Assembly: GCF_009834545.1 (NCBI RefSeq)
Contig: NZ_CP019427.1
Coordinates: 4,284,001-4,348,000, forward strand
Length of the DNA stretch: 64,000 nucleotides
Direction: 5' to 3'
Source of the DNA: Pseudomonas sp. S04
Lineage (GTDB): Bacteria > Pseudomonadota > Gammaproteobacteria > Pseudomonadales > Pseudomonadaceae
In this document: positions 16,686 through 41,623 of the stretch, piece after piece
Layout of the letters: every line of letters begins with the position of its first letter
Position numbering within the stretch: the stretch's first letter is position 1
Translations under genes and position numbers: made by a program
The notes under the pieces: model-generated
The model's input: only the letters and a program-made list of their open reading frames with translations
Told to the model about the DNA's origin: nothing
The model's database searches: none

Positions 16686-17840
16686 TTAGAAAATCCCGCG
16701 ATAGATGGCCGCTACATCCTGCTCCGTCATGTCCCGTGGATTGCTGTCGATCAAGCGGCGAATGCCTACCACCACTTCCGTGGCCATCGACGGGATGGCC
16801 TGTTCGTCGACCTGCAGCTTCGACAAACGCGTCTCCAGGCCGCTGTCGCGCACCAGCGCCTCAATGGCCAGGACAAACGCCTCGGCCGCCGTGGCCTCAT
16901 CGGCAAACAGCTGGTCCGGCAGCAGATAGGCTGCCAGTTCAGCATATTGGCGCTGCGCCTGGGCGAGGTTGAAGCGAATGATCGGTGCCATGACCAGGGC
17001 GTTGGCGTGGCCATGGGGAATATGGAAGCGCGCCCCCAACGGATAGGCCAGGGCATGGATCGCCGCCACCGAAGCATTGACGAATGCCATGCCCGCCATC
17101 AGTGAACCTTGCAGCATCGCCGTGCGTGCCGCGACGTCCCGACCATCGGCCAGCACCTTGGGCAGATTGCGTCCCAGCAAAGCCAAGGCGGCGGTGGCCA
17201 GGCTGTCGGCAATTGGGTTCTTGCGCGTGCGGCTGGTGTAGGCCTCGATGGCATGCACCATGGCATCCAGGCCGGTGGCGGCAGTGACCTTGGGCGGCAG
17301 ACCGAGGGTCAGCTCGGGGTCGAGCACCGCCACGTCGGGCAGCAATTGCGGCGAGTACACCACCTGCTTGCACTGCTGCTCATCAGTGATTACCGAGACC
17401 CAGGTCACCTCCGAACCCGTGCCGGCGGTGGTTGGCATCAACACCAGCGGCACCCGTTGCCCCAGCGCTTTATCGGTGCCGTACATGGCTTCCAGGGACT
17501 GCTCGCTATTGACCAGCAAGGCCACCAGTTTCGCCGCATCCAGGGAACTGCCGCCCCCCAGCCCCAGCACCCCATCGACCTTGAACGCGCGCGCCTGGGC
17601 TGCCGCCTGCTTGACCACACTGGCCGAAGGATCGGGCACCACCTGGTCAAACACCGTCACCTCGCAGCCAGCAGCGTGCAAGGCCTGCTGCGCACTGGCG
17701 GCAAACCCCAGGCTGACAATGCCTGGGTCGCACACCAGCATCACCCGCTGTGCGCCCAATCCGCTGAGCACGTGCCCGACCTGTTGCAGCGCACCGGCTT
17801 CACACAGGATGCGCGGTACGCTTCTGAATTCGTAACTCAT
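16686..17840 (-). CDS. Iron-containing alcohol dehydrogenase 1
   Basis: A 384-residue group III (Fe-type) alcohol dehydrogenase, which interconverts an alcohol and an aldehyde or ketone with NAD(P). The NAD-binding loop GLGGGSSLDAAK (around residue 95) and the metal ligands in GLDAMVHAIEAY and HALAYPLGARFHIPHGHANA are all present. It is the last gene of an operon beginning with two ABC binding proteins at 25025, and follows a second, related dehydrogenase by 16 bases. The family also includes maleylacetate reductase and 1,3-propanediol dehydrogenase, so the substrate is open. Confidence 0.92.
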   Translation of the reverse strand: MSYEFRSVPRILCEAGALQQVGHVLSGLGAQRVMLVCDPGIVSLGFAASAQQALHAAGCEVTVFDQVVPDPSASVVKQAAAQARAFKVDGVLGLGGGSSLDAAKLVALLVNSEQSLEAMYGTDKALGQRVPLVLMPTTAGTGSEVTWVSVITDEQQCKQVVYSPQLLPDVAVLDPELTLGLPPKVTAATGLDAMVHAIEAYTSRTRKNPIADSLATAALALLGRNLPKVLADGRDVAARTAMLQGSLMAGMAFVNASVAAIHALAYPLGARFHIPHGHANALVMAPIIRFNLAQAQRQYAELAAYLLPDQLFADEATAAEAFVLAIEALVRDSGLETRLSKLQVDEQAIPSMATEVVVGIRRLIDSNPRDMTEQDVAAIYRGIF

Positions 17841-17856
17841 GAATCACTCCTTCGCC

Positions 17857-19011
17857 CTACAGCACCGAGGCGTAGATGGCGTGAATATCGTCGCGGTTGA
17901 GCGGACGCGGGTTGTTGATCAGCAAGCGCTCGACTTTCAGCGCGTCCTCGGTCAGCCGGGACAGGTCCTGGGCCGTGACGCCCACCTCATGCAAACGCTG
18001 GGCGAACGGCATGCGCGCCACCAGGCGGGTGATGAAATCGATGAACCCCTCGCACGCCTCGGCCGCATTGGCAAAGCGCTGCTGCGGCAGTACCGCCGAG
18101 GCCAGTTGCGCGTACAGCGGCTCGGCCGCCGAACGGTTGAAATTCAGCACGGGCACCAACACCAGGGCATTGCTCAAGCCATGGGGCACGTGGAATTGCC
18201 CACCCAGTGGATAGGCCAGCGCATGCACCGCCGCCACTGGCGCATTGGCGAACGCCATGCCGGCCAGCATCGAACCCAGGAGCATGTCCGAACGCGCCGC
18301 CAAGTCACCCGGCTCGGCCAGTACCCGATCCAGGTTGCCCGCCAGCAAACGCAGGGCCTGCACCGCCAGGCCATCGGACAACACGTTTTTCTTGTGCACG
18401 CTGGTATAGGCCTCGATCGCGTGCACCATCGCATCGACCCCGGTCATGGCGCTGATCGCCGCCGGCAGGCCGACGGTCAAGCGCGCATCCAGCAAGGCGA
18501 TGTCCGGATACAACAGCGGGCTGACCACGCCCTTCTTTTCATGGCTGGGGGTAGTGACGATTGCCACGGCCGTGACCTCGGACCCGGTGCCCGCGGTGGT
18601 CGGCACCTGGATCAACGGCAAACGTGGCCCCTTGGCCAGGTTGATGCCGTAGATCGACTCCAGCGACTGCTCGTGACCACACAGCAGCGCCACCAGCTTG
18701 GCGGTGTCCAGGGAGCTGCCGCCGCCCAACCCGATGACCGCCTGGGCGCTGCAACCGCGCGCCACTTCCACCGCATCCAGCACCGCGGCCACCGGCGGAT
18801 CCGCCTGCACATCGCTGTACAGCGTGACCTGCACGCCCTGCTCGCGCATCGCCGCCAGCGGTGCATCGAGCAAGCCGGCGCGCAGCAGGCCTGGGTCACT
18901 GACCAGCAGTACCCGCTCGGCTTTGAGCTCGCGACACAACTGGCCCAGGCGCAAGGCGCCGTCAATTTCACAGATCACCCGTGGGGTGGTTTCAAAGTTA
19001 AATGTCGACAT
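17857..19011 (-). CDS. Iron-containing alcohol dehydrogenase 2
   Basis: A 384-residue paralogue of the next gene, with the same length and overall architecture: GLGGGSSLDTAK for NAD binding, then TGVDAMVHAIEAY and HALAYPLGGQFHVPHGLSNA for iron binding. It lies eight bases after the LivF-like gene. Keeping two such enzymes in tandem suggests either oxidation of two stereoisomers or successive substrates, or a heteromeric enzyme. It is probably transcribed from the sigma-54 promoter at 25083-25098 with the transporter. Confidence 0.92.
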   Translation of the reverse strand: MSTFNFETTPRVICEIDGALRLGQLCRELKAERVLLVSDPGLLRAGLLDAPLAAMREQGVQVTLYSDVQADPPVAAVLDAVEVARGCSAQAVIGLGGGSSLDTAKLVALLCGHEQSLESIYGINLAKGPRLPLIQVPTTAGTGSEVTAVAIVTTPSHEKKGVVSPLLYPDIALLDARLTVGLPAAISAMTGVDAMVHAIEAYTSVHKKNVLSDGLAVQALRLLAGNLDRVLAEPGDLAARSDMLLGSMLAGMAFANAPVAAVHALAYPLGGQFHVPHGLSNALVLVPVLNFNRSAAEPLYAQLASAVLPQQRFANAAEACEGFIDFITRLVARMPFAQRLHEVGVTAQDLSRLTEDALKVERLLINNPRPLNRDDIHAIYASVL

Positions 19012-19019
19012 GGTGTTCC

Positions 19020-19667
19020 CTACCCTACTGTCACGCTGCCGCGCTCGATGCGAAACAACGCATCGACCAGGTCAGCAGAATGAGTGTCATCGGACTCGCT
19101 GATCAGCACGCACAAACCTTCCTGCCCGAGCTTGGCGATCACCTCGCTCAAGCGCCTCGACAGCACGGGCGCCACGCCCTCGAAGGGTTCGTCGAGCAAC
19201 AGCAGCTTGTTGCCGGGCATCAGCGCCCGGGCCAGCGCCACCAGTTTTTGCTGGCCGCCCGACAGTTGCATGGCCTTGCGGTCGCGGAACTGGGCGATCT
19301 CCGGGATCAGGCTGTACACCCATTCCAGGCGGCGCTGACTGTCGGCCAAGTGATTGGCCCAGACCGGCAGCAGGATGTTCTCCTCGACCGTCAACGCCGG
19401 GATCAACCGCCGATCCTCCGGCAAATAGCTGATACCCGCCGCTGCCCGCTTGAAGCTGGGCAGGGTGCGCAGGTCCTGCCCGGCAAAGGACATGTCACCC
19501 GCGTCGGCGTCCAGCAACCCCATGATGGCGCGGATCAGCGTGGTCTTGCCGGCACCGTTATGGCCGATCAATCCCACCATCTGCCCGGCGCCCACGGCCA
19601 GCGACACCTGGTGCAGGATCGGTACCCCTTCGATCGATACACTCAGGTTGCGAATTTCAAGACTCAT
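19020..19667 (-). CDS. ABC transporter ATPase, LivF type
   Basis: A 215-residue ATPase of a HAAT-family (branched-chain amino-acid type) ABC importer. It has Walker A GHNGAGKTTL, the signature LSGGQQKLVALARAL and Walker B LLLLDEPFEG. It is shorter than typical LivF (about 235) but complete. Its start overlaps the stop of the LivG-type gene by four bases. It works on the cytoplasmic side with the two permeases upstream. Despite the family name, the context of alcohol dehydrogenases suggests a substrate other than leucine. Confidence 0.92.
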   Translation of the reverse strand: MSLEIRNLSVSIEGVPILHQVSLAVGAGQMVGLIGHNGAGKTTLIRAIMGLLDADAGDMSFAGQDLRTLPSFKRAAAGISYLPEDRRLIPALTVEENILLPVWANHLADSQRRLEWVYSLIPEIAQFRDRKAMQLSGGQQKLVALARALMPGNKLLLLDEPFEGVAPVLSRRLSEVIAKLGQEGLCVLISESDDTHSADLVDALFRIERGSVTVG

Positions 19668-20434
19668 AGCGCGGCCCTCAGGTGAACTTTCTGGCTACCG
19701 GTGACAAATTCCTGCACCCGGGGATTGGCCAGCACCTGTTCCGGCACCCCGTCGGCCAGTACTTCACCGCTGTAGAACGCGAGGATGCGCGAGACGTAAC
19801 GACGCACCACGTCCATGTCGTGCTCGACAAACAACACCGTCACCCGGCGCTCGGCGACCACCCGCATCACCGTGTCCATCAGCGCAGTTTTCTCCTCGGC
19901 GCTGACCCCACTGGTGGGTTCGTCGAGCAGCAGCATCTGTGGCTCGCCAATCAGCGCCATGGCGATATCGATCAGCTTGCGCACACCCTGCGGCACGGCG
20001 GTGACCTGGGTATCGCGCCAGCGGGCGATGTCGAACTGCGCAAGCATCGCGTCGGCCAACGCCACCCGCGCCGCCGTGCGCATCGGCGCCAGCAGCGAGG
20101 GAAACGGGTTCTGCGCCGCCGCCACGGCGATCAGCAGGTTGTCCATTACGCTCAACTGGGGGAACAACTGGGCGACCTGGAACGAGCGGGCCATGCCCAG
20201 GCGGGTAATCGCCCGGGGCGTGCGGCCGATGATCGACTGGCCATTGAACAGGACCTGGCCACTGCTGGGTTTCAGGTAGCCGGTGACCATGTTGATAAAG
20301 GTGGTCTTGCCGGCGCCGTTGGAACCGATGACGCCGACCACTTCGCCCGGCCGAATGCGCACGTTGACGTCCTTGGCCGCGGTGACCGCACCAAATGCCT
20401 TGCACAGTCCTTGAGTTTCGAGAATGCAGCTCAT
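19664..20434 (-). CDS. ABC transporter ATPase, LivG type
   Basis: A 256-residue ATPase paired with the LivF-type subunit. Walker A is GSNGAGKTTF; Walker B is MLLLDEPTSGVS. The signature region is atypical: GVRKLIDIAMALIGEPQ replaces the usual LSGGQQR, a common feature of LivG-like subunits. The C-terminal BCA-type extension is present. The ATG at 20434 overlaps the end of the permease gene by four bases; the frame extends 13 codons upstream within that gene. Confidence 0.92.
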   Translation of the reverse strand: MSCILETQGLCKAFGAVTAAKDVNVRIRPGEVVGVIGSNGAGKTTFINMVTGYLKPSSGQVLFNGQSIIGRTPRAITRLGMARSFQVAQLFPQLSVMDNLLIAVAAAQNPFPSLLAPMRTAARVALADAMLAQFDIARWRDTQVTAVPQGVRKLIDIAMALIGEPQMLLLDEPTSGVSAEEKTALMDTVMRVVAERRVTVLFVEHDMDVVRRYVSRILAFYSGEVLADGVPEQVLANPRVQEFVTGSQKVHLRAAL

Positions 20435-21375
20435 GCCTTGGCCCTCCGCGCTTGTCCGGTAAACAGGCTCCACAACCCCTTGGGCAGGAACACGATGATC
20501 GCCAGCAAGGTGAAGCCCAGAATCATTTGCCAGCTATGGGGCACCAGCTCGATGGCATAGGTGCGCACCACCGCAAACACAATCGCCGCAATGAAGGGCG
20601 CCGCGACGTGGGCGGTACCGCCGAGCAAGGCAATGAACACGAACTCGCCAGAGGTGATCCAGTACGCCATTTCCGGGTCGATGTGCCCGGCCGACAGCGC
20701 CATGAAGCCGCCGCCCAGGGCCGACACCGCAGCCGCCGCCACGTAGTTCATGTACAGCACCCAACGGGGAGATTGGCCGAGGTACTCGACGCGCACTTCG
20801 TTTTCGCGAATCGCTTCGCACATCATCCCGGCACTGCTGCGGCTGTAGCGGTGCAGCAACACCGCCAACACCGCGCAGACGCCGACGATGATGATGAACA
20901 GCGCGAGCGGCGCCTGGCCCTGGGCCGGGCTCCAGCCGAACAGGCTCCAGGCCTTGACGTTGAAGCCGTCGGTGCTGCCCAGGGCCGAGCTCTTGACCAG
21001 CACGCCGTACAGGATCATCGAGAACGCCAACGACAACATGGCGAAAAAGATCTCTCGGTAGCGGGTCATCAACAGGCCCAGCAGCATTGCCAGCAACACG
21101 GCTGCGCCCACCCCGATCACCAGCAGCAAGGCCAGGTCGGAGATCTCCAGGAAGTGCCCGCTCATGCCCACGGCATAACCGCCGACGCAGAAGTACAGGC
21201 CCTGGCCGAAGGTCACCAGGCCCGCGCGCATCTGCATCACCACGCCCTGCACCACCATCGACTTGGCCAGGGCCATCGTCAGCAGGAACACCAGCCATTG
21301 CGGCGCAATCAAGCCGCCGGCGGCCAGCAGCAGCGCGACGCCGAGCAGTATCAGTTCGGTTCTATTGAGGCGCAT
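20431..21375 (-). CDS. ABC transporter permease, LivM type
   Basis: A 314-residue inner-membrane permease with about eight to ten hydrophobic segments and the cytoplasmic coupling loop containing SCEAIRENEVRVEYLGQSP-like sequence (MMCEAIRENEVRVEYLG). It ends with a hydrophobic helix and a basic tail. It starts one base after the LivH-type permease gene ends and overlaps the LivG-type gene. The two permeases together form the translocation pore. Confidence 0.9.
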   Translation of the reverse strand: MRLNRTELILLGVALLLAAGGLIAPQWLVFLLTMALAKSMVVQGVVMQMRAGLVTFGQGLYFCVGGYAVGMSGHFLEISDLALLLVIGVGAAVLLAMLLGLLMTRYREIFFAMLSLAFSMILYGVLVKSSALGSTDGFNVKAWSLFGWSPAQGQAPLALFIIIVGVCAVLAVLLHRYSRSSAGMMCEAIRENEVRVEYLGQSPRWVLYMNYVAAAAVSALGGGFMALSAGHIDPEMAYWITSGEFVFIALLGGTAHVAAPFIAAIVFAVVRTYAIELVPHSWQMILGFTLLAIIVFLPKGLWSLFTGQARRAKA

Positions 21376-21376
21376 A

Positions 21377-22276
21377 TCAGATTTTCCTCGCCAGCACGCG
21401 GCCGAACAGGCCCTGCGGACGCACCGCAAGCACCAGCGCCATCACGCCGTAGATCACAAAGAGTTCGAATTCCGGGGCGTAGTGCACGGCGGCGGCACGG
21501 CTCAGGCCCACCAGCAAGGCACCAACAGCGGCCCCTTCGATGCTGCCCATGCCACCGACCACGACCACGGCAAAGGCCAGCACGATGATTTCCACGCCCA
21601 TGCCCGGCACCACGGAAATCGCCGGCGCCGTCAGGGCACCCGCCAGCGTGCCGAGCATGGTGCCCAGCACGAACACCAGGGTGAACATGCGGCGCACGTT
21701 GACGCCCATGGCCATCGCCACTTCCCGGTCATGGATCACCGCGCGCAGCACCTTGCCCTGGTGGGTGCGCTCCAGCCACAGCCACAGGCACAGGCCCAGC
21801 ACCACCGACACACCGACCAGCATCAGGTCGTAGTTGGACACCTTGAGCCCCGCCAGGGCGCTGCGGCCCATCTCGGCATACGGCTGATAGGCGAAGTAAG
21901 GATTCACCCCCCAGACCATCTTCATGCTGTCTTCGAGGACCAGCAGCAAGGCGTAGGTGATGATCACCATCAGCACTTCGTCGCGGCCGTACATGAAGCG
22001 CAACAACCCGCGCTCGATGATCAGCCCGACGATCAGCCCGGCCACCAGCGCGCAACCGAGCATCAACAGATACCCCGCCCACACCGGCCCGATGCCGTTG
22101 TTGAAATACCAGCCCACCAGCGACGCGGCGGTATAGGCGCCGATGGCGTAGAAGCTGCCATGGGCCATGTTCAGGATGCGCATCACCCCGTAGATCACCG
22201 TAAGCCCGGCGGCTACCAGGAACAGCCACGAGGCATAGATGGTGCCGTCAATCAGCACCGCAAAAAGACTCATCAT
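21377..22276 (-). CDS. ABC transporter permease, LivH type
   Basis: A 299-residue permease beginning MMSLFAVLIDGTIYASWLFL, with about eight transmembrane helices and the family segment RILNMAHGSFYAIGAY near residue 40. The coupling loop is DREVAMAMGVNVRRMFTLVF. Two consecutive ATGs (22276 and 22273) are possible; AGGA is five or eight bases upstream. It is adjacent to the LivM-type gene and 72 bases downstream of the first binding-protein gene. Confidence 0.92.
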   Translation of the reverse strand: MMSLFAVLIDGTIYASWLFLVAAGLTVIYGVMRILNMAHGSFYAIGAYTAASLVGWYFNNGIGPVWAGYLLMLGCALVAGLIVGLIIERGLLRFMYGRDEVLMVIITYALLLVLEDSMKMVWGVNPYFAYQPYAEMGRSALAGLKVSNYDLMLVGVSVVLGLCLWLWLERTHQGKVLRAVIHDREVAMAMGVNVRRMFTLVFVLGTMLGTLAGALTAPAISVVPGMGVEIIVLAFAVVVVGGMGSIEGAAVGALLVGLSRAAAVHYAPEFELFVIYGVMALVLAVRPQGLFGRVLARKI

Positions 22277-22348
22277 AGGGGTCCTACCTTGGCAAAGAGG
22301 TGGCGGCGCCCGCAGGCCCGCCACAGTGGATCAATCACGCGGCGCGGC

Positions 22349-23671
22349 TCAGTTGCACTGGGCACCCGGGAAGCCGGCCTTGATCCATTCCAGCGCGGTG
22401 GTACCGTCCGGCGGGGTCACGCACTCACCGTTGAAGGCGATGACGTTCTGCACGCCGCCCTTCTTGTTCGCCGCGTCGTACTGGTACTCGCCGTAGGCAA
22501 TGCCTTGCATCGCCTGGTGACCACCGGCCCGGGCCATTTGCACCTGGCCCGAGACCGACTCGAAGGTCGCGCCCTTGAAGGCCTTGGCGATCTCCAGCGG
22601 TGCCGGGACCTTGCCCGACTCGACCTTGGCGTTCTCCGCCGCGTGCTTGAGGCCGAGAATCGCCTGGGCCATCTTGCTCGCCGGGTACGTCGGGTCGGTC
22701 TTGTAGGCCGCCTGGTAGCTGCCCTTGAACCAGCGGTTGAGCTCGTTATCCGGGGCAAACGCACCGAATGGCCCACGGCCGCCGATGATCATGCCGTTGG
22801 GTGCCTGGTCCTTGTAGCGGTCGATCGCCGACTCGCCGCACGTCAGCACGGCGGTTGCATCCTCCAGCAGGCCACGGGCGTTGGCCTGCAGTACCAGGGC
22901 CTCCATGTCGCCACCCCAGAAGCTGGAGTGGATGATGTCCGGGCGCTTGACCGACAAGGCGGAAATCTCGGCGCCATACTGGCCCTGGAACACCTTGGGC
23001 ATTTGCGACTCGACCACCTTGGCCTTGGGCATCAACTGCTCCATGGAGTGGGTGAAGTCGTTCCAGCTGTCCTGGCCCCAGGCGTAGTTCTGCTGGATCC
23101 CGGCGACCTTCTGCGCGTCCGGGCGGACCTTGGCCAGGTAACGCGCCGCGCCGATGTTGTCCACGGCCGCATCGAGGCTGGTGCGGAACACGAACTGCGG
23201 GGTCTTGTCTTCATTGAACAACTGCGAAGTGCCGCAATCGTAGAACACCGTCATCGCGCCCAGCTCTTCGGCCACCGGGGCAATGGCCAGGCAGTCGCCG
23301 GACGAGATGTAGCCCACCACTGCATCGACCTTCTGGCGCTGCACCAGGTTACGGAACTCTTCCACCTGCTTGGCCGCACCACCGGCCTCATCGATGATCA
23401 CCACTTCGATCTCGGCACCGTTGATGCCAATGGTGTTATAGGGCGCGGGCAGCTTGCCCTGGTTCAGCCCTTCCACCAGCACCTTGGCGGCATTCGCCGA
23501 GGGTTCGCCGAACGGGCCGGCCGCAGGGCCCGAGAGGAAGGTCACGATACCGATGCGGAACTTGCCGTTCTCGGCTGCCTGGACGCTGGTGGTCAAGGAC
23601 AGGGCCAGGCCCGTGGCAGCGATGGCCAGGGCCAGGGGATGTTTGATCATGGTTTTTTTATAGTTGTACAT
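22349..23671 (-). CDS. ABC periplasmic binding protein (LivK-like) 1
   Basis: A 440-residue periplasmic solute-binding protein of the Peripla_BP_6 family. The signal peptide is MIKHPLALAIAATGLALSLT with cleavage after VQA. The mature region begins GKFRIGIVTFLSGPAAGPFG, the standard first strand and ligand loop. Two starts are possible, ATG at 23671 or 23650, neither with a good ribosome-binding site; the second gives a tidier signal peptide. It is followed by the permeases and preceded by a second, different binding protein. Confidence 0.88.
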   Translation of the reverse strand: MYNYKKTMIKHPLALAIAATGLALSLTTSVQAAENGKFRIGIVTFLSGPAAGPFGEPSANAAKVLVEGLNQGKLPAPYNTIGINGAEIEVVIIDEAGGAAKQVEEFRNLVQRQKVDAVVGYISSGDCLAIAPVAEELGAMTVFYDCGTSQLFNEDKTPQFVFRTSLDAAVDNIGAARYLAKVRPDAQKVAGIQQNYAWGQDSWNDFTHSMEQLMPKAKVVESQMPKVFQGQYGAEISALSVKRPDIIHSSFWGGDMEALVLQANARGLLEDATAVLTCGESAIDRYKDQAPNGMIIGGRGPFGAFAPDNELNRWFKGSYQAAYKTDPTYPASKMAQAILGLKHAAENAKVESGKVPAPLEIAKAFKGATFESVSGQVQMARAGGHQAMQGIAYGEYQYDAANKKGGVQNVIAFNGECVTPPDGTTALEWIKAGFPGAQCN

Positions 23672-23702
23672 GGGCTGATGTCTCGGTGGATGAATGAACG
23701 GC

Positions 23703-25025: not shown

Positions 25026-25082
25026 ACAATGAATTCCTGTTGGGCGTTGACAACGCCTCTTGTTGGACAGCCGGGTTGCTAG

Positions 25083-25098
25083 AGCAAGGGCTGTGCCA
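25083..25098 (-). promoter_or_regulatory. Sigma-54 promoter of the ABC transporter/ADH operon
   Basis: The minus strand reads TGGCAC-AGCCC-TTGCT, a perfect -24/-12 element with the GG and GC dinucleotides correctly spaced. Transcription would start near 25071, about 45 bases before the first binding-protein gene. Only a single GTGTC word (25193) lies upstream, within a REPIN loop. Confidence 0.85.
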
Positions 25099-25149
25099 GA
25101 GGTGTTGGGGAAGGTCTCAAGGATGGGCAAAGCGAACCAGCCAAACCCT

Positions 25150-25252
25150 TGTAGGAGCGAGCGCCCGCTTGCGGCTTGCTCGCGATGGCGGTGTGTCAGG
25201 CACCGTTGATGTTGGCTGTGCCTGCCCCATCGCGAGCAAGCTCGCTCCTACA
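25150..25252. repeat. REPIN with enlarged left REP, upstream of the sigma-54 promoter
   Basis: The left REP (25150-25188) holds an extra GCCCGCTTGCGG-like segment; the right one (25227-25252) is standard. It occupies about 50-155 bases upstream of the -24 element, exactly where an enhancer-binding protein would normally act, so it may alter DNA looping. Most of the 299-base gap between the operon and the response regulator is this element. Confidence 0.82.
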
Positions 25253-25283
25253 AGGGTTTGGCGGGTGTGGTGGTGGCGGGGAT

Positions 25284-32185: not shown

Positions 32186-32200
32186 TTGGTTCTCCTGACT

Positions 32201-32474: not shown

Positions 32475-33235
32475 ACACAACTGTGGTGCGACGTTGCACC
32501 AGGGTGTTGGATTAGACCGAGTACATATCCATTTTTGCGGTAACGGCCTCCTATGGTTCCGCCTGACGGCGGCTCACTTTTGAACAGCGCAAAAGTAAGC
32601 AAAACGCTCTTACCCCACCACTCGGTGCCTCGCTTAGGCTCGGCATGCCCGTACTCCGACATTGATTTGGGGGGCCGCCGCAATGGGCCCTCCCTGGCCC
32701 AGTGCGGCTAAACCGGCGTCCTGCCGGTTTACCCCCCAAATCAATATCGGATTCCGGCCAGCGTGGTTAACGGGGCGCCCAGGATCAAAAACAAAGCGAG
32801 GCGGCCTAAAAGCCGACCTGATCGCTAGGGCATGCGCGGTGTCGCTTCTACTTCCTAAGACGCTGACGAAGTCAGCCATCTTTTGATCTGGCTCTGGCTC
32901 TGGCTCTTGATCCTGGGCGCCCCGTTAACCACGCTGGCCGAACGCAGGCTTGAAGCCGTGGGTAACCCGGCAGGACGCCGGGTTAGCCGCCCCGCGCCAG
33001 GGATGGCGCGTGGCGGCGGCCCACGGATTCAAGCCGGAGTGAGGGAACACCGAGCCTAAGCGAGGTGCCGAGTGGTGGGGTAAGAGCGTTTTGCTTACTT
33101 TTGCGCTGTTCAAAAGTGAGCCGCCGTCAGGCGGAACCATAGGAGGCCGTTACCGAAGAAATGGATATGTACTCCGCCTAATCCAACACCCCACAGGCCG
33201 CTACAGTTGTGTAGATACCTATGCATCTGCAGGGC
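32457..33235. repeat. Nested inverted-repeat element (about 0.78 kb)
   Basis: Imperfect outer arms of roughly 180 bases (about 32457-32645 and 33050-33235) are inverted copies of each other. A second, perfect 34-base inverted pair lies inside at 32755-32788 and 32907-32940. Between these, each side carries a three-way junction-like fold: outer stems at 32661-32674/32732-32745 and 32949-32962/33020-33033, each enclosing two smaller hairpins. Short frames inside are not genes. Such blocks are common, undescribed repeats in fluorescent Pseudomonas genomes. Together with the enhancer, promoter and leader motifs it fills the 1.1 kb gap between dctP and oprD. Confidence 0.9.
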
Positions 33236-33289
33236 CGCCAACCCTGCCGCCAACGGACAAGGGGCCCTGTTCAAGCGACCCCCACGGGA

Positions 33290-34618: not shown

Positions 34619-34725
34619 TTTTGTTTCTCCTAATGGGTGCGGTCGACAATCCGGGGCGCGGGGCATGAAAGAGCCCGCGGCACCTGGCTTCGACTTTCTT
34701 GTTATGGCTATGGCGGGTGAAAGCG

Positions 34726-35121
34726 TCAGTCGGGCAGCCACTCTTGCAGCGTCAGCTCGACCGTGATGAAGGTGAGGTTTTTGCCGCGTTCCAGGCGGCC
34801 GGCGTACAGCTTGCCATCGGCATCGGCAACCACCGCCTGCAGGCGACTTGCACCGCTGAGGATTTCGCCGCTGACGCTAAGGATTTCCACCCCAGGTCCC
34901 GGGACGTGGATCTGGATCATGCCCTCGCGACCCAGGTAGCTGAGTTGCCCGTCAATCAGGCTGCCCAAGCCACCGCGAACCACCGCCAAATCAATGCCGT
35001 GCTCTTTGCACAGGGCCTCGGCGCTGTCGATAAGGTCTTCGTTGGGCTTGAGGCGGGCGATCACCAGACGGCCCAGGCGGCCGTCCTGGACCAGCGATTC
35101 TTCGGTTACGGCAACGCTCAT
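34726..35121 (-). CDS. PPC-domain (DUF296) protein 1
   Basis: A 131-residue protein that is almost entirely one PPC/DUF296 domain, known from plant AT-hook proteins and bacterial trimers. The blocks VIARLKPNEDLIDSAEALCK and VRGGLGSLIDGQLSY match the family. No AT-hook is present. Bacterial members have no proven role. It overlaps the second DUF296 gene by four bases, and the pair sits between an acyl-CoA ligase and a porin, which points to a metabolic rather than DNA-binding function. Confidence 0.82.
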   Translation of the reverse strand: MSVAVTEESLVQDGRLGRLVIARLKPNEDLIDSAEALCKEHGIDLAVVRGGLGSLIDGQLSYLGREGMIQIHVPGPGVEILSVSGEILSGASRLQAVVADADGKLYAGRLERGKNLTFITVELTLQEWLPD

Positions 35122-35669
35122 GACAGCTCCTTGCGGACAGGATGCAGCAGGTTGAAATGGGTTTCTGCGTCAGGCTGTACCTGGTAGGCAACCTGGTCGA
35201 ACAGGCACAGGCGAATCGTCAGTGGCTCGCTGCCGACAATCAGTTTGTCCAGCACCAGATGCCCGCCGTGCTGCTCGCCATCGCGGTCCAGAAAACCGGC
35301 ATGGCAATGCAACAACGGCGCGCCCCGGGCGTCGCGCCCCACGGTGATGGCGCCGCTGATAAAGGTGATGTAGCCGTCCAGGACCACCGGCTGGCCGTAG
35401 TCATACGGACGCTCGGGCTGGTCGGTGACGATCATCCGGTGATAGCTCAGGTGTGCGGCACCGCCACACAGGATGCGCCCCACGGCGCTGCCGTAACGTC
35501 GACCTTCAAGCGCCTTGAGCACGCCTGCCGCGACGTTGCTCGCCAGGGGCAGGACGATGCGCAGCTCTTCGCAGCACGGTACTTCCAGGTCCAGCAGTCG
35601 CGGTGCCAGGGACGGCCCCTCGTGAATAAACGTGCGTACTCCGGCACGCTCAGCGAAATGCGGCGTCAT
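35118..35669 (-). CDS. PPC-domain (DUF296) protein 2
   Basis: A 183-residue protein related to the neighbouring DUF296 gene but longer at both ends. It contains LRIVLPLASNVAAGVLKALE, the histidine-rich GGAAHLSYHRMIV and HCHAGFLDRDGEQHGGHLVL; the latter resembles the conserved histidine cluster of this fold and could bind metal. The ATG at 35669 overlaps the ligase stop by one base (TGATG). Upstream reading in this frame runs through the ligase gene and is not coding. A heteromer with DUF296 protein 1 is plausible. Confidence 0.78.
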   Translation of the reverse strand: MTPHFAERAGVRTFIHEGPSLAPRLLDLEVPCCEELRIVLPLASNVAAGVLKALEGRRYGSAVGRILCGGAAHLSYHRMIVTDQPERPYDYGQPVVLDGYITFISGAITVGRDARGAPLLHCHAGFLDRDGEQHGGHLVLDKLIVGSEPLTIRLCLFDQVAYQVQPDAETHFNLLHPVRKELS

Positions 35670-37246
35670 CAGGCCACCTCCTGGCGTTCTTCGAGCAACG
35701 CGCGGATCTGCTTCTTGACGATCTTGCCGTAGCCCGACTTGGGCATTTCCTCCCAGCGGACAAAACGCTTGGGCCATTTGTAGCGGGCGATTCGCGGCTC
35801 CAGATGGGCCAGCAGTTGTTCGTCGCTGACCTCGCCGGTGGTGACGATCACGGCGTAGCCGGACTCGCCCCACTTCACGTCGGGCATGCCCAGTACGGCG
35901 GCTTCGGTCACCGCCGGATGGCTGAGCAGGGCCTCTTCGATCTCCCGCGGGTACACGTTGGAACCACCGGAAATGTACATATCCGAAGCCCGCCCGGTGA
36001 TGAACAGATAGCCGTGTTCATCCACATGACCAAGGTCGCCGGTGTGGAACCAGCCGAACTTGAAACAGCTCTCGTTGGCCTGGGGGTTGTTGTAGTAGCC
36101 GCTGAACACCGCCGGTCCACGTACGCAGATTTCACCGTCGACTCCCGTGTCCAGTTCGTTGCCGGCCTCATCGAGAATCGCCACCTGCATGCCGGTGCGC
36201 GGGTAACCGCAGCTACCGACCTTGGCATTCGGCGAGTCCTCGTTGTCGTGGCAATCGGCAGGCAGCACGGTGATGTTGCCCGTCACTTCACCCAGGCCGT
36301 AGTACTGCACCAGGACCTTGCCCAACTTGTCCAGGGCATGGCGCTGGTCGGCGCGATACATCGGCGCGCCCGCGTAGATCAGGTGGCGCAGGCTGCTGTG
36401 GTCGTAGCGGTCGACGGCCTCGCTTTCGGTGAGCATCTTGACGATGGTCGGCACGGTGAACAGGTTGTCCACGCGGTATTCCTGCACCAGGCGCCAGGCT
36501 TCGTCACAGTCCAGCTTGTCGCTGGCCGGCAGGATGCAGGCAGCGCCCCGGGCGACGTTGACCAACGCATGGATGCCCGCACCGTGGGACAGCGGGGCCA
36601 GGACCAGCGAACGCGAATGCTGATTCAGGCCCGGCATCAGGTCGGCGATATGGTTGGTGATGACAAACGCCATCTGGCCGTGGGTCAGCACCCCGGCCTT
36701 GGGATGGCCAGTGGTGCCCGAGGTGTAGAAGAACCACAGCGGGTCGTGGTACTTCACTTCGGCCGCACGGAAGCTGGCCTGCAGCGCGCTGCCCTCCTCC
36801 AGCAATTGCTCGTAGCCCAGTTCGCCGGCACGCGGCTGACCGATGGCGATCACCTGTTGCAGGCTCGGCGATACCGCACGCACGGCGTCGACATAATGCT
36901 CCAGGCCTTCGTCATACAGCATCGCTACCGCGCCGCTGGAGCTGCCCAGGTAGGCCGCTTCCGCCGGGGTGATCCGCACGTTGGTCGGCACCCACACGGC
37001 GCCAAGGCGGAACGCGACCCAGGCACTTTCGAACAGCGGCAGGTTGTTGCGCGAATGCACCAGCAGCTTGTCGCCTTTACCCAGGCCGCGCGCGCGCAAG
37101 GCCGCAGCAACACTGTCGACCCGCCTGGAAATTTCTTGCCAGGAATGCTCACGACCGTCACGAATGAAACCCGGTGCATCCGGATAGCGACGCGCGACCT
37201 GGTTGAGCATTTCCCCCAGATTCATCACGTTGTCGATGCCCATCAT
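35669..37246 (-). CDS. Acyl-CoA ligase (AMP-forming)
   Basis: A 525-residue member of the ANL adenylating superfamily that activates a carboxylic acid to its CoA thioester through an acyl-AMP. The P-loop WFFYTSGTTGHPKAG (about residue 170), the YYGLGEVTGNI block, the WFHTGDLGHVDEHGYLFITG hinge and the C-terminal lysine in PKSGYGKIVKKQ are all present. It resembles medium- or long-chain acyl-CoA ligases. It overlaps the thiolase gene by four bases. The product would feed the thiolase. Confidence 0.92.
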   Translation of the reverse strand: MMGIDNVMNLGEMLNQVARRYPDAPGFIRDGREHSWQEISRRVDSVAAALRARGLGKGDKLLVHSRNNLPLFESAWVAFRLGAVWVPTNVRITPAEAAYLGSSSGAVAMLYDEGLEHYVDAVRAVSPSLQQVIAIGQPRAGELGYEQLLEEGSALQASFRAAEVKYHDPLWFFYTSGTTGHPKAGVLTHGQMAFVITNHIADLMPGLNQHSRSLVLAPLSHGAGIHALVNVARGAACILPASDKLDCDEAWRLVQEYRVDNLFTVPTIVKMLTESEAVDRYDHSSLRHLIYAGAPMYRADQRHALDKLGKVLVQYYGLGEVTGNITVLPADCHDNEDSPNAKVGSCGYPRTGMQVAILDEAGNELDTGVDGEICVRGPAVFSGYYNNPQANESCFKFGWFHTGDLGHVDEHGYLFITGRASDMYISGGSNVYPREIEEALLSHPAVTEAAVLGMPDVKWGESGYAVIVTTGEVSDEQLLAHLEPRIARYKWPKRFVRWEEMPKSGYGKIVKKQIRALLEERQEVA

Positions 37247-38412
37247 TGCGCGCGCTCCAGGATGCTCACGTAGTTGGTCACTGCCGCACCGCCCATGTTG
37301 AAGACCCCGGCGCGATCGGCCTTGGGCAACTGCATGTCGCCGGCCTGGCCGCAGAGCTGCATGGCCGCCATCACGTGCATCGACACGCCGGTGGCACCGA
37401 TGGGATGGCCCTTGGACTTGAGGCCGCCCGAGGGGTTGATCGGCAGGCGCCCGTCCTTGCGGCTGATGCCCTCGGCGATGACGCGCGCACCTTGACCCCG
37501 CTCGGCCAGGCCCATGGCTTCGTACTCCAGCAACTCGGCGATGGTGAAGCAGTCGTGGGTCTCGACCAGCGACAGGTCGGCCAGGCTCAACTCGGCCCGC
37601 TGCAGGGCCTGTTGCCAGGCGCGGGCGGCGCCTTCGAAGTAGGTGGGGTCGCGCTTGGACAGCGGCATGTAGTCGTTGACTTGCACCGCGGCACGGAAAC
37701 GCACGGCATGGCGGCGCTCACCTATCAGGTCCTCGCGGCTGATCACCAGGGCGGCCGCGCCATCGGTGATCAACGAGCAGTCGGTGCGTTTCAGTGGCCC
37801 GGCCACGAACGGGTTTTTTTCCGATGGCTGACGGCAGAACTCATAACCGAAATCTCGTCGCATGTGGGCGTACGGGTTGAGCACACCGTTGGCGTGGTTC
37901 TTGGCCGCGATCATTGCCAGCGCATCGGACTGGTCGCCGTAACGCTCGAAGTAGCTTTGTGCGATGTTGCCGAACACCCCGGCAAAGCCGCCCTCGATGT
38001 CGGCTTCTTCCTTGGCGTAGCAGCACTTGAGCAGGATCTTGCCCACCTCGGCGGTGGGCAGGGTATTCATCTTCTCGAAGCCCACTACCAGTGCGTGTTG
38101 GCTTTGGCCACTGAGGACGGCTTGCAGCGCCGAGTGGATCGCAGCGGAGCCGGTGGCACAGGCATTCTCCAGCCGAACCGAGGGCGTGAAGCGCAGCGCC
38201 TCAATGTGGTTGGCCAACAGGGACGAGGGAAAGTCCTGATACACAAAGCCGGCATTGAAGTGGCCAATGTGGATGGAGTCGATCTGCTGCGGCGCGATGT
38301 CGGCATGCGCCAATGCGCCAACGGCGGCCTCGGCCATCATCATCTCGGGATCGAGTTGGTCGAACTTACCGAATGGGGAGTGATACCAGCCTGTGATAAC
38401 GGGCGATCGCAT
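37243..38412 (-). CDS. Thiolase (SCP-x type)
   Basis: A 389-residue thiolase, first gene of its operon. The acyl-binding cysteine is in ENACATGSAAIHSAL and the histidine in SKGHPIGATG. The C-terminal motif is NMGGAAVTN rather than the CxGGG of FadA-type enzymes, which marks the SCP-x/SCP-2-like subfamily that cleaves branched or aromatic 3-ketoacyl-CoAs. Together with the ligase this suggests shortening of a side chain by CoA-dependent cleavage. The sigma-54 promoter at 38451-38466 lies just upstream, giving a leader of about 27 bases. Confidence 0.92.
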   Translation of the reverse strand: MRSPVITGWYHSPFGKFDQLDPEMMMAEAAVGALAHADIAPQQIDSIHIGHFNAGFVYQDFPSSLLANHIEALRFTPSVRLENACATGSAAIHSALQAVLSGQSQHALVVGFEKMNTLPTAEVGKILLKCCYAKEEADIEGGFAGVFGNIAQSYFERYGDQSDALAMIAAKNHANGVLNPYAHMRRDFGYEFCRQPSEKNPFVAGPLKRTDCSLITDGAAALVISREDLIGERRHAVRFRAAVQVNDYMPLSKRDPTYFEGAARAWQQALQRAELSLADLSLVETHDCFTIAELLEYEAMGLAERGQGARVIAEGISRKDGRLPINPSGGLKSKGHPIGATGVSMHVMAAMQLCGQAGDMQLPKADRAGVFNMGGAAVTNYVSILERAQ

Positions 38413-38450
38413 AAGGGGTTCCTTGCATGAATGGTGTTTGCAAGGGCGAT

Positions 38451-38466
38451 AGCAAGAGCGGTGCCA
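38451..38466 (-). promoter_or_regulatory. Sigma-54 promoter of the thiolase operon
   Basis: The minus strand reads TGGCAC-CGCTC-TTGCT, identical outside the spacer to the other two promoters of this region. Transcription would start near 38439. Confidence 0.88.
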
Positions 38467-38557
38467 AGGCTTGGCAAGGCCAGCACAGGCCTTATGGGAC
38501 GGGGTTTTGCGCGATAGAGGTCAGGTCCAGGCAGCTGTCGCCTGGACAGGGGTGGGA

Positions 38558-38579
38558 GACACTTGGGGAGACACGTGTC
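38558..38579. promoter_or_regulatory. Candidate enhancer upstream of the thiolase operon
   Basis: GACACTTGGGGAGACACGTG with a following TC holds GACAC (38558), GACAC (38570) and GTGTC (38575); the last two form the perfect palindrome GACACGTGTC. It lies about 120-140 bases upstream of the predicted start and shares GTGTCTCC..CAAGTGTC with the enhancer of the TRAP operon. Confidence 0.55.
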
Positions 38580-38620
38580 GCTTCAGTTGTATCGTCTGGG
38601 CCAGCCGATTTTTCCGCAGC

Positions 38621-39529
38621 TCACCCCGCTTGCGCCTCGCGAGTCACTTGCAGGCAAGCGTGCTCTGCGCTGTCGATGAAGGTGGCGATGCAGGGGTTGT
38701 GATTGTCGGCCTTCCACACCGCGACCACCTCGATGACCGGGGCATCGCGCAACGGTTTGAAGGTGGTGGTGGCCAGGCGCATGTTGCACATCGAGCGCGG
38801 CACGATCGCGATTCCCAAGCCTTCGCCCACCAGGTTGACGATGGTTTGCTGCATGTTGATTTCCAGCCCGATGTTCGGGGTGACACCGTGCTGCAGGCAG
38901 TAGTTGAAGATCATGTCGTGCAAGGCGGGAGCGATCCGTCGCGGCACGATGATGAAGGTTTCTCCCGCCAGCTCCCGAGGGTCGATCAGCGCCTGCTCGA
39001 GGAGCCGATGGCCCGGCGGCAGGACCACGGTCATTTCTTCGCGAAACAGGGTCACGGTTTCCAGCCCGGAGCAGTCCTGCGGGCGGTACATGATCGCCAC
39101 GTCCTTGTTTCCGCTGCTGATGTCCTGGGCCAGGTCCAGGGGCAAGGTCTCGGTCAGCTTCAGGCTGACCTGGGGAAACTGCGCAGCGTAGCGCCGGGTA
39201 ATCGCCGGCGTAACGCTGTAGGCCGTCGACATCATGAACCCCACCGACAACTCGCCCGCCGCCCCCCGCGCTGCGGCCAAGGCATTGCGCTTGGCCTGCT
39301 CGAACGCGGCAAACACCGTGCCGGTGTCCAGGTAAAAACGCTGGCCGGCTTCGGTGAGCTCCACCCGTCGCCGGGAACGATCAAACAGCCTGACCCCCAG
39401 TTCGTCTTCCAGCAAGGCGATCTGCCGTGACAGCGGCGGCTGCGAGATATGCAGGCGTTCGGCGGCACGACCGAAGTGCAGGGTTTCTGCCAGGGTGCGG
39501 AAATATTGCAGATGGCGGAGCTCAATCAT
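38621..39529 (-). CDS. LysR-family regulator
   Basis: A 302-residue LysR-type regulator. The helix-turn-helix lies in LHFGRAAERLHISQPPLSRQ (about residues 16-35), and the effector domain starts near residue 90 (GELSVGFMMSTAYSV), as in the CatR/BenM branch. The ATG at 39529 gives the standard MIELRHLQYF start; the frame extends 41 codons further without similarity. It is divergent from an orphan sigma-54 activator with 152 bases between, so it may control that gene or the catabolic operons. Confidence 0.9.
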   Translation of the reverse strand: MIELRHLQYFRTLAETLHFGRAAERLHISQPPLSRQIALLEDELGVRLFDRSRRRVELTEAGQRFYLDTGTVFAAFEQAKRNALAAARGAAGELSVGFMMSTAYSVTPAITRRYAAQFPQVSLKLTETLPLDLAQDISSGNKDVAIMYRPQDCSGLETVTLFREEMTVVLPPGHRLLEQALIDPRELAGETFIIVPRRIAPALHDMIFNYCLQHGVTPNIGLEINMQQTIVNLVGEGLGIAIVPRSMCNMRLATTTFKPLRDAPVIEVVAVWKADNHNPCIATFIDSAEHACLQVTREAQAG

Positions 39530-39661
39530 GATGCTCTCAAAGGTATCAATAGATGATTTATTATGGATTGGAAAATATAAGTGTGCCTCGTTATTGTCAT
39601 TCAACGCCATATCGACGGCTGCATCACAAGTGCGGTGAGTCGACATAGTCACGAGCTATAC

Positions 39662-39669
39662 AATAATAA
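39662..39669 (+). promoter_or_regulatory. Crc/Hfq motif upstream of the sigma-54 activator
   Basis: AATAATAA is an exact AAYAAYAA motif, immediately before the ribosome-binding sequence AAGGTG of the activator gene. It would place the activator itself under catabolite repression. Confidence 0.5.
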
Positions 39670-39681
39670 AAGGTGACGCTG

Positions 39682-40752
39682 ATGCCTTCTGTACACGAAA
39701 ACCCTTCGTTTACCCGAGCCCACACAACCTCCGCCTACCCTGAATGCGATATTGCCCACGACTCCGACCCCTACGTGCGCCAGGCCTTTCGCCGTGCACT
39801 GCGGCTCATGGAGCGCGGCATCGCGGTGCTGATCCAGGGCGAGACCGGGACTGGCAAAGAGGTCCTCGCCCGTGCACTGCACGAGCACAGTCAGCGCCAC
39901 GCCGCGCAACTGGTCGCCCTCAACTGCGCCTCAATCCCCGAAACCCTGATCGAAAGCGAACTGTTCGGCTATGCCCGCGGTGCTTTCTCCGGTGCCCTGC
40001 CCGGCGGCAAGAAAGGCAAAGTGGCCCAGGCCGACGGCGGCACCTTGTTTCTTGATGAAATCGGCGACATGCCCTTCGAACAGCAGACCCGCCTACTGCG
40101 GGTCATCGCCGAACGCGAGATCACCCCGCTGGGTGCCGAACGCAGCGTGCCAGTGAACTTCGCCTTGATCTGCGCGACCCACCAATCACTGTCCGACCTG
40201 GTGGAAAACGGCCGCTTTCGCGAAGACTTGTTCTATCGCATTGCTACCGGCGTGGTGCAATTGCCGCCCCTGCGTGAGCGCACTGATCGGGCCGAACTGG
40301 TGTGCAGCATGGTCGCCAACGAATTGCCCGGTTGCGACCCACGCCAGGTGATCAGTGCCGATGTCTGGCCCCTGCTGCTCGGCCATGCGTGGCCCGGCAA
40401 CCTGCGGCAGATGCGCGCGGTTATCCGCTACGCCTGCGCGGTCAAGGAAGGCGCGCGCATCCAGCGCTGTGACCTGCCCGCTGACTTCCTCGCCCAAGCC
40501 GGTGGTCAGCCTGGGCTGCCGGTCCGCGCCCAGGTGCAGAACGTCACGCCGATTCGCCCGAGCAGGCCCACCGCCGCGCCCATGGGTGAGCGCGAGGACG
40601 TCCTCGGCGTACTCATCGACTGCCGCTGGAACATGACTGCGGCGGCCCGCGCGCTGGGCATCTGCCGACCCTCGCTGTATCGCGTCCTGCGGCGGCTGGA
40701 CATCGCGCCGCTGAAGAACCAGTTGGCGCTGGGCAGCTTCGCCCCTTCCTGA
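39682..40752 (+). CDS. Orphan sigma-54 activator without sensor domain
   Basis: A 356-residue AAA+ activator with only about 35 residues before the ATPase. Walker A is GETGTGKE and Walker B is GGTLFLDEIGD. The sigma-54 contact loop reads GAFSGA in place of GAFTGA and is followed by an unusual LPGGKKGK insertion. A Fis-type helix-turn-helix (MTAAARALGICRPSLYRVLR) ends the protein. Such sensor-less activators (like PspF or HrpR/HrpS) are controlled by partner proteins or by transcription. The ATG at 39682 fits the ribosome-binding site; a GTG three codons upstream is possible. Confidence 0.9.
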   Translation: MPSVHENPSFTRAHTTSAYPECDIAHDSDPYVRQAFRRALRLMERGIAVLIQGETGTGKEVLARALHEHSQRHAAQLVALNCASIPETLIESELFGYARGAFSGALPGGKKGKVAQADGGTLFLDEIGDMPFEQQTRLLRVIAEREITPLGAERSVPVNFALICATHQSLSDLVENGRFREDLFYRIATGVVQLPPLRERTDRAELVCSMVANELPGCDPRQVISADVWPLLLGHAWPGNLRQMRAVIRYACAVKEGARIQRCDLPADFLAQAGGQPGLPVRAQVQNVTPIRPSRPTAAPMGEREDVLGVLIDCRWNMTAAARALGICRPSLYRVLRRLDIAPLKNQLALGSFAPS

Positions 40753-40783
40753 CGGTTTACCCCCTGCTGTCCATCGAAAAGCC

Positions 40784-40810
40784 GGCCACTTCCCGTGTAT
40801 CGGGAAGGCC
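40784..40810. other. Hairpin between activator and SDR genes
   Basis: GGCC-A-CTTCCCG-TGTAT-CGGGAAG-GCC forms a strong stem of about ten base pairs, with no T-run after it. It could be a weak attenuator or processing site in the 88 bases between the two genes. Confidence 0.55.
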
Positions 40811-40833
40811 GACCTGCGTCCAGATCAAGGAAT

Positions 40834-40841
40834 AACAATAA
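40834..40841 (+). promoter_or_regulatory. Crc/Hfq motif at the SDR start codon
   Basis: AACAATAA is an exact AAYAAYAA motif that touches the ATG of the SDR gene, where Hfq/Crc binding would block ribosome access. Confidence 0.55.
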
Positions 40842-41623
40842 TGAATGCCTCAGCCAATTTTGCGCCGATCAGTTTTTCTCTCAAGGGCCGTAACGCACTG
40901 GTGACCGGCGCCGCACGCGGCATCGGCTATGCCATCGCCGTGGCCCTGGGCCAATGCGGCGCGCGGGTCGCCATCTGCGACCTCGACCACGACGCCGCAG
41001 AACGGGCAGCCGCCCAGCTGGGTGAGTTGGGCATCGATGCCATCGGCCTGGGCGTCGACGTTGCCGATGAGCAACAGGTGCAGGCAATGGTCAGCCAGGT
41101 GGGCCTGGCGTTGGGCAGCATCGACATCCTGGTCAACAATGCCGGCATCGTCTCGACCTTGCCCCTGCTAGAAGTCAGCGCGGCAGAATGGAAGCGCGTC
41201 ATGGCAATCGACCTCAACAGCGTTTTCTACTGCGCCAAAGCCGTACTCCCCGGCATGATGGCCCGCCGCTGCGGACGCATCATCAACATCGCCTCCGTCG
41301 CCGGCAAACGCGGCGGCGGCCTGCTGGGCAACAGTTGTTATGCCGCCGCCAAAGGCGGCGTAATCGCCCTGACCAAGGGCCTGGCCCGCGAGGCCGGCCC
41401 CTTCAACATCACCGCCAACGCCGTCTCCCCCGCCCTGACTGAAACCGACATGACCAGCACCCTGAGCAGCGAAGCACGGGCCAAAGTACTGGCAGACATG
41501 CCACTGGGACGCGCCGGAACCCCCCGCGACATCGCCGCCGCCGTGTGCTTCCTGGCATCGGATGCGGCGAGTTTTGTGACTGGGGAAATTATGGATGTGG
41601 ATGGGGGGTATATGCGGGATTAG
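40841..41623 (+). CDS. SDR-family oxidoreductase
   Basis: A 260-residue NAD(P)-dependent dehydrogenase of the FabG-like group. Cofactor motif TGAARGIGYAIAVAL, acidic residue in ICDLDHDAAE (Asp after the second strand, favouring NAD), NNAG motif LVNNAGIVSTL, catalytic Tyr-Lys in CYAAAKGGVIALTKGL, and C-terminal SFVTGEIMDVDGGYMRD are visible. It follows the orphan sigma-54 activator by 88 bases. It could oxidise a 3-hydroxyacyl-CoA or an alcohol in the catabolic pathway of the region. A catabolite-repression motif touches its start. Confidence 0.9.
   Translation: MNASANFAPISFSLKGRNALVTGAARGIGYAIAVALGQCGARVAICDLDHDAAERAAAQLGELGIDAIGLGVDVADEQQVQAMVSQVGLALGSIDILVNNAGIVSTLPLLEVSAAEWKRVMAIDLNSVFYCAKAVLPGMMARRCGRIINIASVAGKRGGGLLGNSCYAAAKGGVIALTKGLAREAGPFNITANAVSPALTETDMTSTLSSEARAKVLADMPLGRAGTPRDIAAAVCFLASDAASFVTGEIMDVDGGYMRD

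Follow-up and report, generated by a model that had tools for sequence, protein, structure and literature searches.

The 64,000-nucleotide (nt) stretch of Pseudomonas sp. S04 analysed here (NZ_CP019427.1, positions 4,284,001 to 4,348,000; referred to as the window, with positions counted from its first letter) carries, with a probability of roughly 0.85, two independent sigma-54 catabolic modules side by side, each with its own enhancer code and its own activator, the second operating through a LysR cascade. Module A (16686-28397) comprises a sensor histidine kinase-response regulator pair, two periplasmic binding proteins, a urea-type ATP-binding cassette (ABC) importer, and two Fe-type alcohol dehydrogenases. 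Module B (28466-41623) comprises a tripartite ATP-independent periplasmic (TRAP) importer with a short-chain dehydrogenase/reductase (SDR), a thiolase-coenzyme A (CoA) ligase-PCC2-PCC1-OprD gene set, a LysR-type regulator, a sensor-less sigma-54 activator, and a second SDR. In silico, the two modules are inherited separately and use two enhancer codes, the module B promoters co-occur with the activator, and the divergent lysR gene is conserved. Which regulator binds which DNA site, how the cascade runs, and what chemistry and substrate are involved are predictions.

Three exact copies of the -24/-12 sequence TGGCAC-N5-TTGCT lie on the minus strand, 5' of sbp1 in module A (25083-25098) and 5' of the TRAP operon (32256-32271) and the thiolase operon (38451-38466) in module B, where the initial annotation had placed them. 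The pattern TGGCAC-N5-TTGCW matched three times in the window against a shuffle mean of 0.16, and three or more matches occurred in 0 of 100 shuffles; relaxed to 2 mismatches, the promoter count no longer exceeded chance (31 versus 26.1 expected). Genome-wide (6,098,669 bases), the exact sequence was found at 11 sites and its reversed control at 2; any three of 11 evenly random sites fell inside 13.4 kb in 0.23% of simulations. For conservation, the best 80 named thiolase loci were combined with 14 more at 83-98% identity from the same genus or family; two more distant loci (G351, 61%; G033, 57%) were kept as activator-negative (L and G numbers denote loci and genomes). Locus L131, a duplicate of L020, was dropped from promoter and neighbourhood counts. 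A TGGCAY-N5-TTGC promoter was present at a conserved 5' position in relatives. At module B, strict -24/-12 sites were found in 29/31 activator-positive versus 2/65 activator-negative loci, and the latter two (L024 and L034) are records that stop near the module, where the activator is not readable. All 8 module A relatives have TGGCAC-N5-TTGC[T/G] upstream of sbp1, at a distance of 66-70 nt from the aligned start. The three promoters are real and conserved in relatives, and the earlier description of three sigma-54 operons with activators nearby was borne out.

The enhancers separate the modules. The module B motif, UAS_B, is GCGACA-N2-TGTCGC (exact 14-mer GCGACACCTGTCGC). Two copies lie 5' of dctP (32394-32407 and 32438-32451, with 3 and 2 mismatches, respectively) and one 5' of the thiolase promoter (38568-38581, 2 mismatches). 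With up to 2 mismatches and within 450 nt of the thiolase gene or dctP, UAS_B was found at 30/32 activator-positive loci (a count that holds L020 and L131, one P. kielensis stretch taken twice) and at 2/65 activator-negative loci. The misses were L032 and L039, and the two bearing negatives were again the truncated records L024 and L034. Relative to the remaining stretch, UAS_B density near these genes was 30-fold in positive loci and 1.5-fold in negative loci. Across 16 Burkholderiales genomes, the exact 14-mer gave 21 matches, of which 18 were in 13 activator-positive genomes, all inside the module; the other 3 were in activator-negative genomes, none in module stretches. One activator-positive genome (G543) had no exact copy, so that the exact motif was found, and only inside the module, in 12/13. 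The module A motif, UAS_A, consists of two TGAGCG-N5-CGCTCA palindromes 32 bp apart (25286-25334), exact at 25286 and with one mismatch at 25318. The exact palindrome occurs at a single place in the genome, and its reversed control on 2 + 2 strands; since the control is no rarer, the evidence for UAS_A is its position. Within 500 nt 5' of sbp1, UAS_A (up to 1 mismatch) was found in 9/9 module A loci, and the pair at 32-bp spacing in 8/9, L130 having a single copy. UAS_A was found 5' of 0/62 module B promoters; conversely, none of the 9 module A loci had UAS_B upstream of sbp1 when up to 2 mismatches were allowed.

The module B activator (39682-40752, plus strand) has 356 residues, with an AAA+ domain and a helix-turn-helix (HTH) domain, and Pfam showed no sensor domain; in the 359-residue frame the AAA+ core begins at residue 32, with no domain before it. 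Its sigma-54 interaction AAA+ domain, GAF-x-GA loop in the form GAFSGA, and Fis-type HTH are those of an enhancer-binding protein. The GAFSGA loop is present in the window and in 28/28 orthologues. Among the best 120 of 7,993 homologues (216-412 residues), 118 had GAFSGA, always within the first 149 residues, and 2 had no such loop. The LysR-type regulator gene (38621-39529, minus strand), which the initial annotation did not include, is divergent from the activator gene in 29/29 loci; L132 and L133, outside that set, have the same arrangement. No good sigma-54 site was found in the intergenic region (39530-39681 in the window). As a candidate for the T-N11-A box of LysR-type regulators, an ATACC-N5-GGTAT palindrome was found there in 12/29 loci, namely 12 of 14 Burkholderiales and 0 of 15 Pseudomonas-family loci, and the latter 15 share, by eye, the GGTAT half and an ATTGGA element. 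The best NCBIfam model for the LysR protein, AlsR, was far below its cut-off and was not used. Because the module B promoters track the activator and the activator gene is divergent from lysR, a LysR-activator-sigma-54 cascade is likely. The LysR-type protein would sense the inducer and control the divergent activator gene, and the activator would bind the GCGACA-N2-TGTCGC enhancers and fire two sigma-54 promoters, one for TRAP uptake and the SDR, the other for thiolase-CoA ligase-PCC2-PCC1-porin. Six activator-less loci (L043, L050, L067, and the Variovorax loci L051, L052, and L059) carry part or the whole of the catabolic set beside a distant LysR (32-37% identity), with neither UAS_B nor a strict -24/-12 site, and the activator may have joined a pathway that was already linked to LysR. 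Alternatively, the activator could be controlled post-translationally by an unlinked partner, with the adjacent LysR regulating something else. Activators that consist of an AAA+ core and a DNA-binding domain without an N-terminal sensor are indeed controlled in trans, PspF by PspA and HrpR/HrpS by HrpV, according to the available part of PMC7057263. However, the 29/29 divergent arrangement with common intergenic elements and the company of LysR genes and the catabolic set in the six activator-less loci make this unlikely.

The genome distribution also sets the modules apart. With sbp1 as the query, 8 relatives were retrieved (6 from the window's genus, 2 from elsewhere in the family); the histidine kinase, response regulator, sbp1, sbp2, livHMGF, and adh1 were together in 8/8 and adh2 in 7/8. 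The thiolase gene and dctP lie near each other in 31/31 activator-positive loci (Pseudomonas, Herbaspirillum, Pandoraea, and Paraburkholderia), and no histidine kinase or Fe-type alcohol dehydrogenase match, and no ABC or binding-protein match above 37% identity, was found in stretches of up to 10 kb on either side of the thiolase loci. Among 348 genomes of the genus, sbp1 was found in 7 (E <=1e-100) and the thiolase in 15 (E <=1e-130), 14 of them, the window's own included, at at least 83% identity; both were found in 2. Counted from either side, sbp1 was present in 2/16 thiolase genomes and the thiolase at at least 92% identity in 2/9 sbp1 genomes, in each case the window's own and G516, and G135 had only a 49% paralogue. 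The modules occupy separate contigs in G516 (an assembly of 170 contigs with 5% contamination), at 68.6 kb of one of 290 kb and at 286.5 kb of one of 318 kb, so that the nearer contig end is approximately 68 kb and 30 kb away, respectively. In the closest relative found (G440, 98% thiolase identity), the TRAP and thiolase operons are kept and the ABC/alcohol dehydrogenase operon is absent. A single regulon for one substrate, with the three operons answering a common signal, as initially proposed for one pathway with two transport systems, can draw on three promoter cores of identical sequence lying within 13.4 kb and on the overlap of 2/348 genomes (0.30 expected, P 0.03, own genome counted), but it is very improbable and was rejected, because the enhancers differ, the ABC/alcohol dehydrogenase operon has its own two-component pair and separate inheritance, the overlap without the own genome is 1/347 (P 0.22) with the modules unlinked, and G440 has module B without module A. 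What survives of the initial grouping is the link of the TRAP and thiolase operons, which share enhancer and activator, lie near each other in 31/31 activator-positive loci, and co-occur in a way that is not chance-like; the ABC operon falls outside it, its co-occurrence with the rest being near chance.

Several observations weigh against the assignment of two modules with separate codes. Neither UAS_B at up to 3 mismatches (21 versus 14.8 expected; 7/100 shuffles had as many) nor UAS_A at up to 2 (5 versus 5.9 expected) was enriched over the window. UAS_B was first noticed by eye in those very upstream regions, and the loci are related, so that the counts are not independent events. The UAS_B copies in Pseudomonas, including those of the window, are degenerate, and an exact palindrome has no diagnostic value there: across 14 other genomes with module B, an exact copy lies in the module only in G520, G398 has two elsewhere, and four genomes without the activator module also carry exact palindromes. 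Genome-wide in Pseudomonas, the palindromes and their reversed controls are similarly rare; the signal is position, not number. Five loci (L026, L138, L140, L141, and L142) have a strict -24/-12 site at dctP alone. Two activator-positive Paraburkholderia loci (L032 and L039) have neither a -24/-12 site nor UAS_B at dctP or the thiolase gene; in both, UAS_B and a one-mismatch -24/-12 site are present upstream of pcc2. The activator was scored at a cut-off of 48% identity, and L146 (thiolase 57%) was counted negative despite a 39% activator match and a site resembling -24/-12 on the other strand. Finally, a perfect and a one-mismatch UAS_B together with TGGCATGGCGGTTGCT lie in front of a pyrroloquinoline quinone (PQQ) dehydrogenase gene (Pfam PQQ and cytochrome c) elsewhere in the same genome, which is accompanied by an aldehyde dehydrogenase gene (Aldedh); the two genes together span C1:3730628-3734316, equal to L159:6628-10316. 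In close orthologues (84-89% identity), the -24/-12 site is kept in 8/8, and UAS_B-like sites (up to 2 mismatches) are present in 4/4 whose genomes lack the module B thiolase and in 0/4 whose genomes have it. These genes were not supported as a distant target of the activator, since UAS_B conservation does not follow it, and for the same reason there may be a further activator that recognises a similar code.

The gene content given in the initial annotation agreed with Pfam and NCBIfam for the Fe-type alcohol dehydrogenases, the LivFGMH-type ABC importer, the NtrC-type pair, and the TRAP, SDR, thiolase-ligase-PCC-OprD, and sensor-less activator genes; besides lysR, it lacked the second PCC-fold gene, which has no Pfam match. 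In the TRAP operon of module B (minus strand), dctP (31154-32185; Pfam and structure comparison, nearest solved relative 4OAN) encodes the solute-binding protein, followed by a fused DctQM permease (29274-31157; Pfam) and SDR 1 (28466-29260; Pfam). The thiolase operon, on the same strand, begins with an SCP2-type thiolase (37243-38412; NCBIfam PRK07516, 652.5 bits, cut-off 412), which has SCP2-thiolases among its closest structures. Its motifs CATG at 85, HDCF at 286, and GHPIGATG at 335 provide the catalytic Cys, the HDCF Cys, and the GHP His. Then follow an acyl-CoA ligase (35669-37246; equivalog PRK07470, 839.8 bits, cut-off 774), PCC2 (35118-35669), PCC1 (34726-35121; DUF296 by Pfam), and an OprD-family porin (33290-34621; Pfam). 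SDR 2 (40841-41623, plus strand; domain scan) lies downstream of the activator gene. Mapping of 21 window genes onto the thiolase loci gave a conserved unit of SDR1, DctQM, DctP, PCC1, PCC2, CoA ligase, thiolase, LysR, and activator, often with OprD and SDR2. PCC2 has the PCC fold by structure comparison and carries an HCH...GGH motif whose histidines are missing from its partner PCC1; H122, H124, and H138 are invariant in 32 aligned sequences (pcc2 was identified in the window and at 49 further loci) and form a putative metal site. PCC2 had no Pfam or NCBIfam match at E 0.001, to acetolactate decarboxylase or any other family, and its fold match to acetolactate decarboxylase was weaker than that to PCC proteins. 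The lack of other folds in the structure comparisons was given no weight. Outside the window (C1:2904820-2905953), the genome encodes another thiolase of this family, with 50% identity.

Module B has the appearance of a pathway, so far undescribed, that breaks down a small hydroxy or keto acid. A short acid of this kind would be imported by the TRAP system and oxidised by an SDR from a 3-hydroxy to a 3-keto form, the CoA ligase would form the thioester, the SCP2-type thiolase would cleave off acetyl-CoA, and the PCC1/PCC2 pair, with the putative metal site in PCC2, would perform one further step. As a hint, the relatives of DctP and PCC2 and a linked D-lactate dehydrogenase point to an acetolactate-like acid. 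In this more specific version of the preferred explanation, 2-hydroxy-2-methyl-3-oxobutanoate or its 3-hydroxy form would be ligated to CoA and thiolysed to acetyl-CoA and lactoyl-CoA, and the released lactate would be oxidised by D-lactate dehydrogenase. The linked dehydrogenase is missing in 90/96 loci, which lowers the odds of this version, and we regard it as possible but rather doubtful. Slightly more tentative still is a broader proposal, in which module B would be a CoA-dependent pathway for acetolactate-type alpha-hydroxy-beta-oxo acids, the PCC1/PCC2 heteromer would be a metal enzyme with a fold common to PCC proteins and acetolactate decarboxylases, and the dedicated head-to-head LysR and sensor-less sigma-54 activator would be a two-step switch that the pathway gained in Pseudomonas and Burkholderiales. 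If true, the DUF296/PCC family would gain a catabolic reaction. In Paraburkholderia dilworthii (L042:2828-16374, plus strand), the order is GntR, PhyH, SDR, dctP, dctQM, thiolase, CoA ligase, hexapeptide-repeat protein, D-lactate dehydrogenase, pcc2, and pcc1, with neither the activator nor strict sigma-54 sites. In two Rhodospirillales records, an acrylyl-CoA reductase gene acuI (at or above the NCBIfam cut-off; L096:18630-19628 and L099:13746-14732) follows pcc1, and the acyl product may be different in that lineage.

Module A is encoded on the minus strand. Its operon contains sbp1 (23703-25025, Peripla_BP_6), sbp2 (22349-23671), livH, livM, livG, and livF for the ABC permeases and ATPases (19020-22276), and the Fe-type alcohol dehydrogenase genes adh2 (17857-19011) and adh1 (16686-17840), all assigned by domain scan. 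The response regulator gene (25325-26665), which adjoins sbp1 in 8/8 relatives, encodes a receiver, a sigma-54 AAA+ domain, and a Fis-type HTH, and the adjacent gene a HAMP-HisKA-HATPase sensor kinase (26670-28397, kept in 8/8 relatives); the pair is of the NtrC type. For the regulator and the kinase, none of the best 25 NCBIfam models each reached its cut-off. Among the NCBIfam models listed for the alcohol dehydrogenases, binding proteins, and permeases, no equivalog was above cut-off; the top permease models were urea UrtB/UrtC, below cut-off, and ErcA, the best model for the alcohol dehydrogenases, was far below cut-off and was not used. The names of the closest solved binding proteins gave no substrate hint. 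From the anatomy of kinase, NtrC-type regulator, paired enhancers, and one sigma-54 operon, the two-component pair would bind the TGAGCG-N5-CGCTCA copies and drive the single operon, and a small solute would be taken up by the two binding proteins and the urea-type importer and oxidised by the two alcohol dehydrogenases. Between these enhancers and the promoter (25136-25266) lie two nested inverted repeats with 27-nt and 15-nt arms, which we take to resemble Pseudomonas repetitive extragenic palindromic (REP) elements. An IS4-family transposase gene (Nterm_IS4, DDE_Tnp_1; 13872-15203, plus strand) lies approximately 1.5 kb to the left of module A; a script found no 16-nt terminal inverted repeats (up to 2 mismatches) around it.

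In a literature search with thin coverage of subscription journals, none of the papers listed, as judged by title and the opening of the abstract, dealt with this gene set, with SfnR, or with a DUF296-acetolactate decarboxylase link. SfnR of Pseudomonas is a sensor-less sigma-54 activator of a sulfur-starvation system whose supply is set by the global LysR-type protein CysB. Module B resembles it in having a sensor-less sigma-54 activator apparently under a LysR-type protein and differs in that the LysR is dedicated, head to head with the activator, and beside a carbon-type catabolic set. AcoR is defined by an N-terminal sensor domain. Some homologues of the module B activator are named by their sources as regulator of acetoin/glycerol metabolism or acetoin catabolism regulatory protein, but the 356-residue activator without a sensor domain is not of the AcoR type. 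It resembles PspF and HrpR/HrpS in having no N-terminal sensor, but the module B orthologues examined have GAFSGA in place of GAFTGA. A Klebsiella michiganensis deoxyribonate cluster encodes a CoA synthetase, a beta-hydroxyacyl-CoA dehydrogenase, and a thiolase, with proposed release of acetyl-CoA and a hydroxyacyl-CoA (available part of PMC6365646). The logic is similar, but that cluster has a CoA-transferase, a glycerate kinase, a lactonase, and major facilitator superfamily carriers, whereas module B has TRAP, the PCC pair, OprD, and sigma-54 control; the deoxyribonate pathway was rejected for module B. Nothing on the module B set was found in the accessible part of a dicarboxylate study by randomly barcoded transposon sequencing (RB-TnSeq; PMC12543098). 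Unlike the PCC/PPC proteins AF0104 (2H6L) and PH0802 (2DT4), PCC1 and PCC2 are two dissimilar proteins encoded together, only one of them with HCH...GGH.

Module A is like NtrC-type two-component systems in its receiver-AAA+-Fis regulator, adjacent kinase, and enhancers paired at 32 bp; unlike the known ones, its regulator and kinase score below the cut-offs of the models compared, and its target operon was not recognised. In this block two systems of known kinds lie next to each other, and one of them combines an unusual pair of regulators with catabolic genes that none of the papers listed described. As the enhancers and the genome distribution show here, neighbouring operons with identical -24/-12 cores do not necessarily form one regulon. 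The PCC (DUF296) pair is placed in a conserved catabolic context, through which its reaction could be found, and module B is a compact system in which the feeding of a sensor-less sigma-54 activator by a LysR-type protein could be tested.

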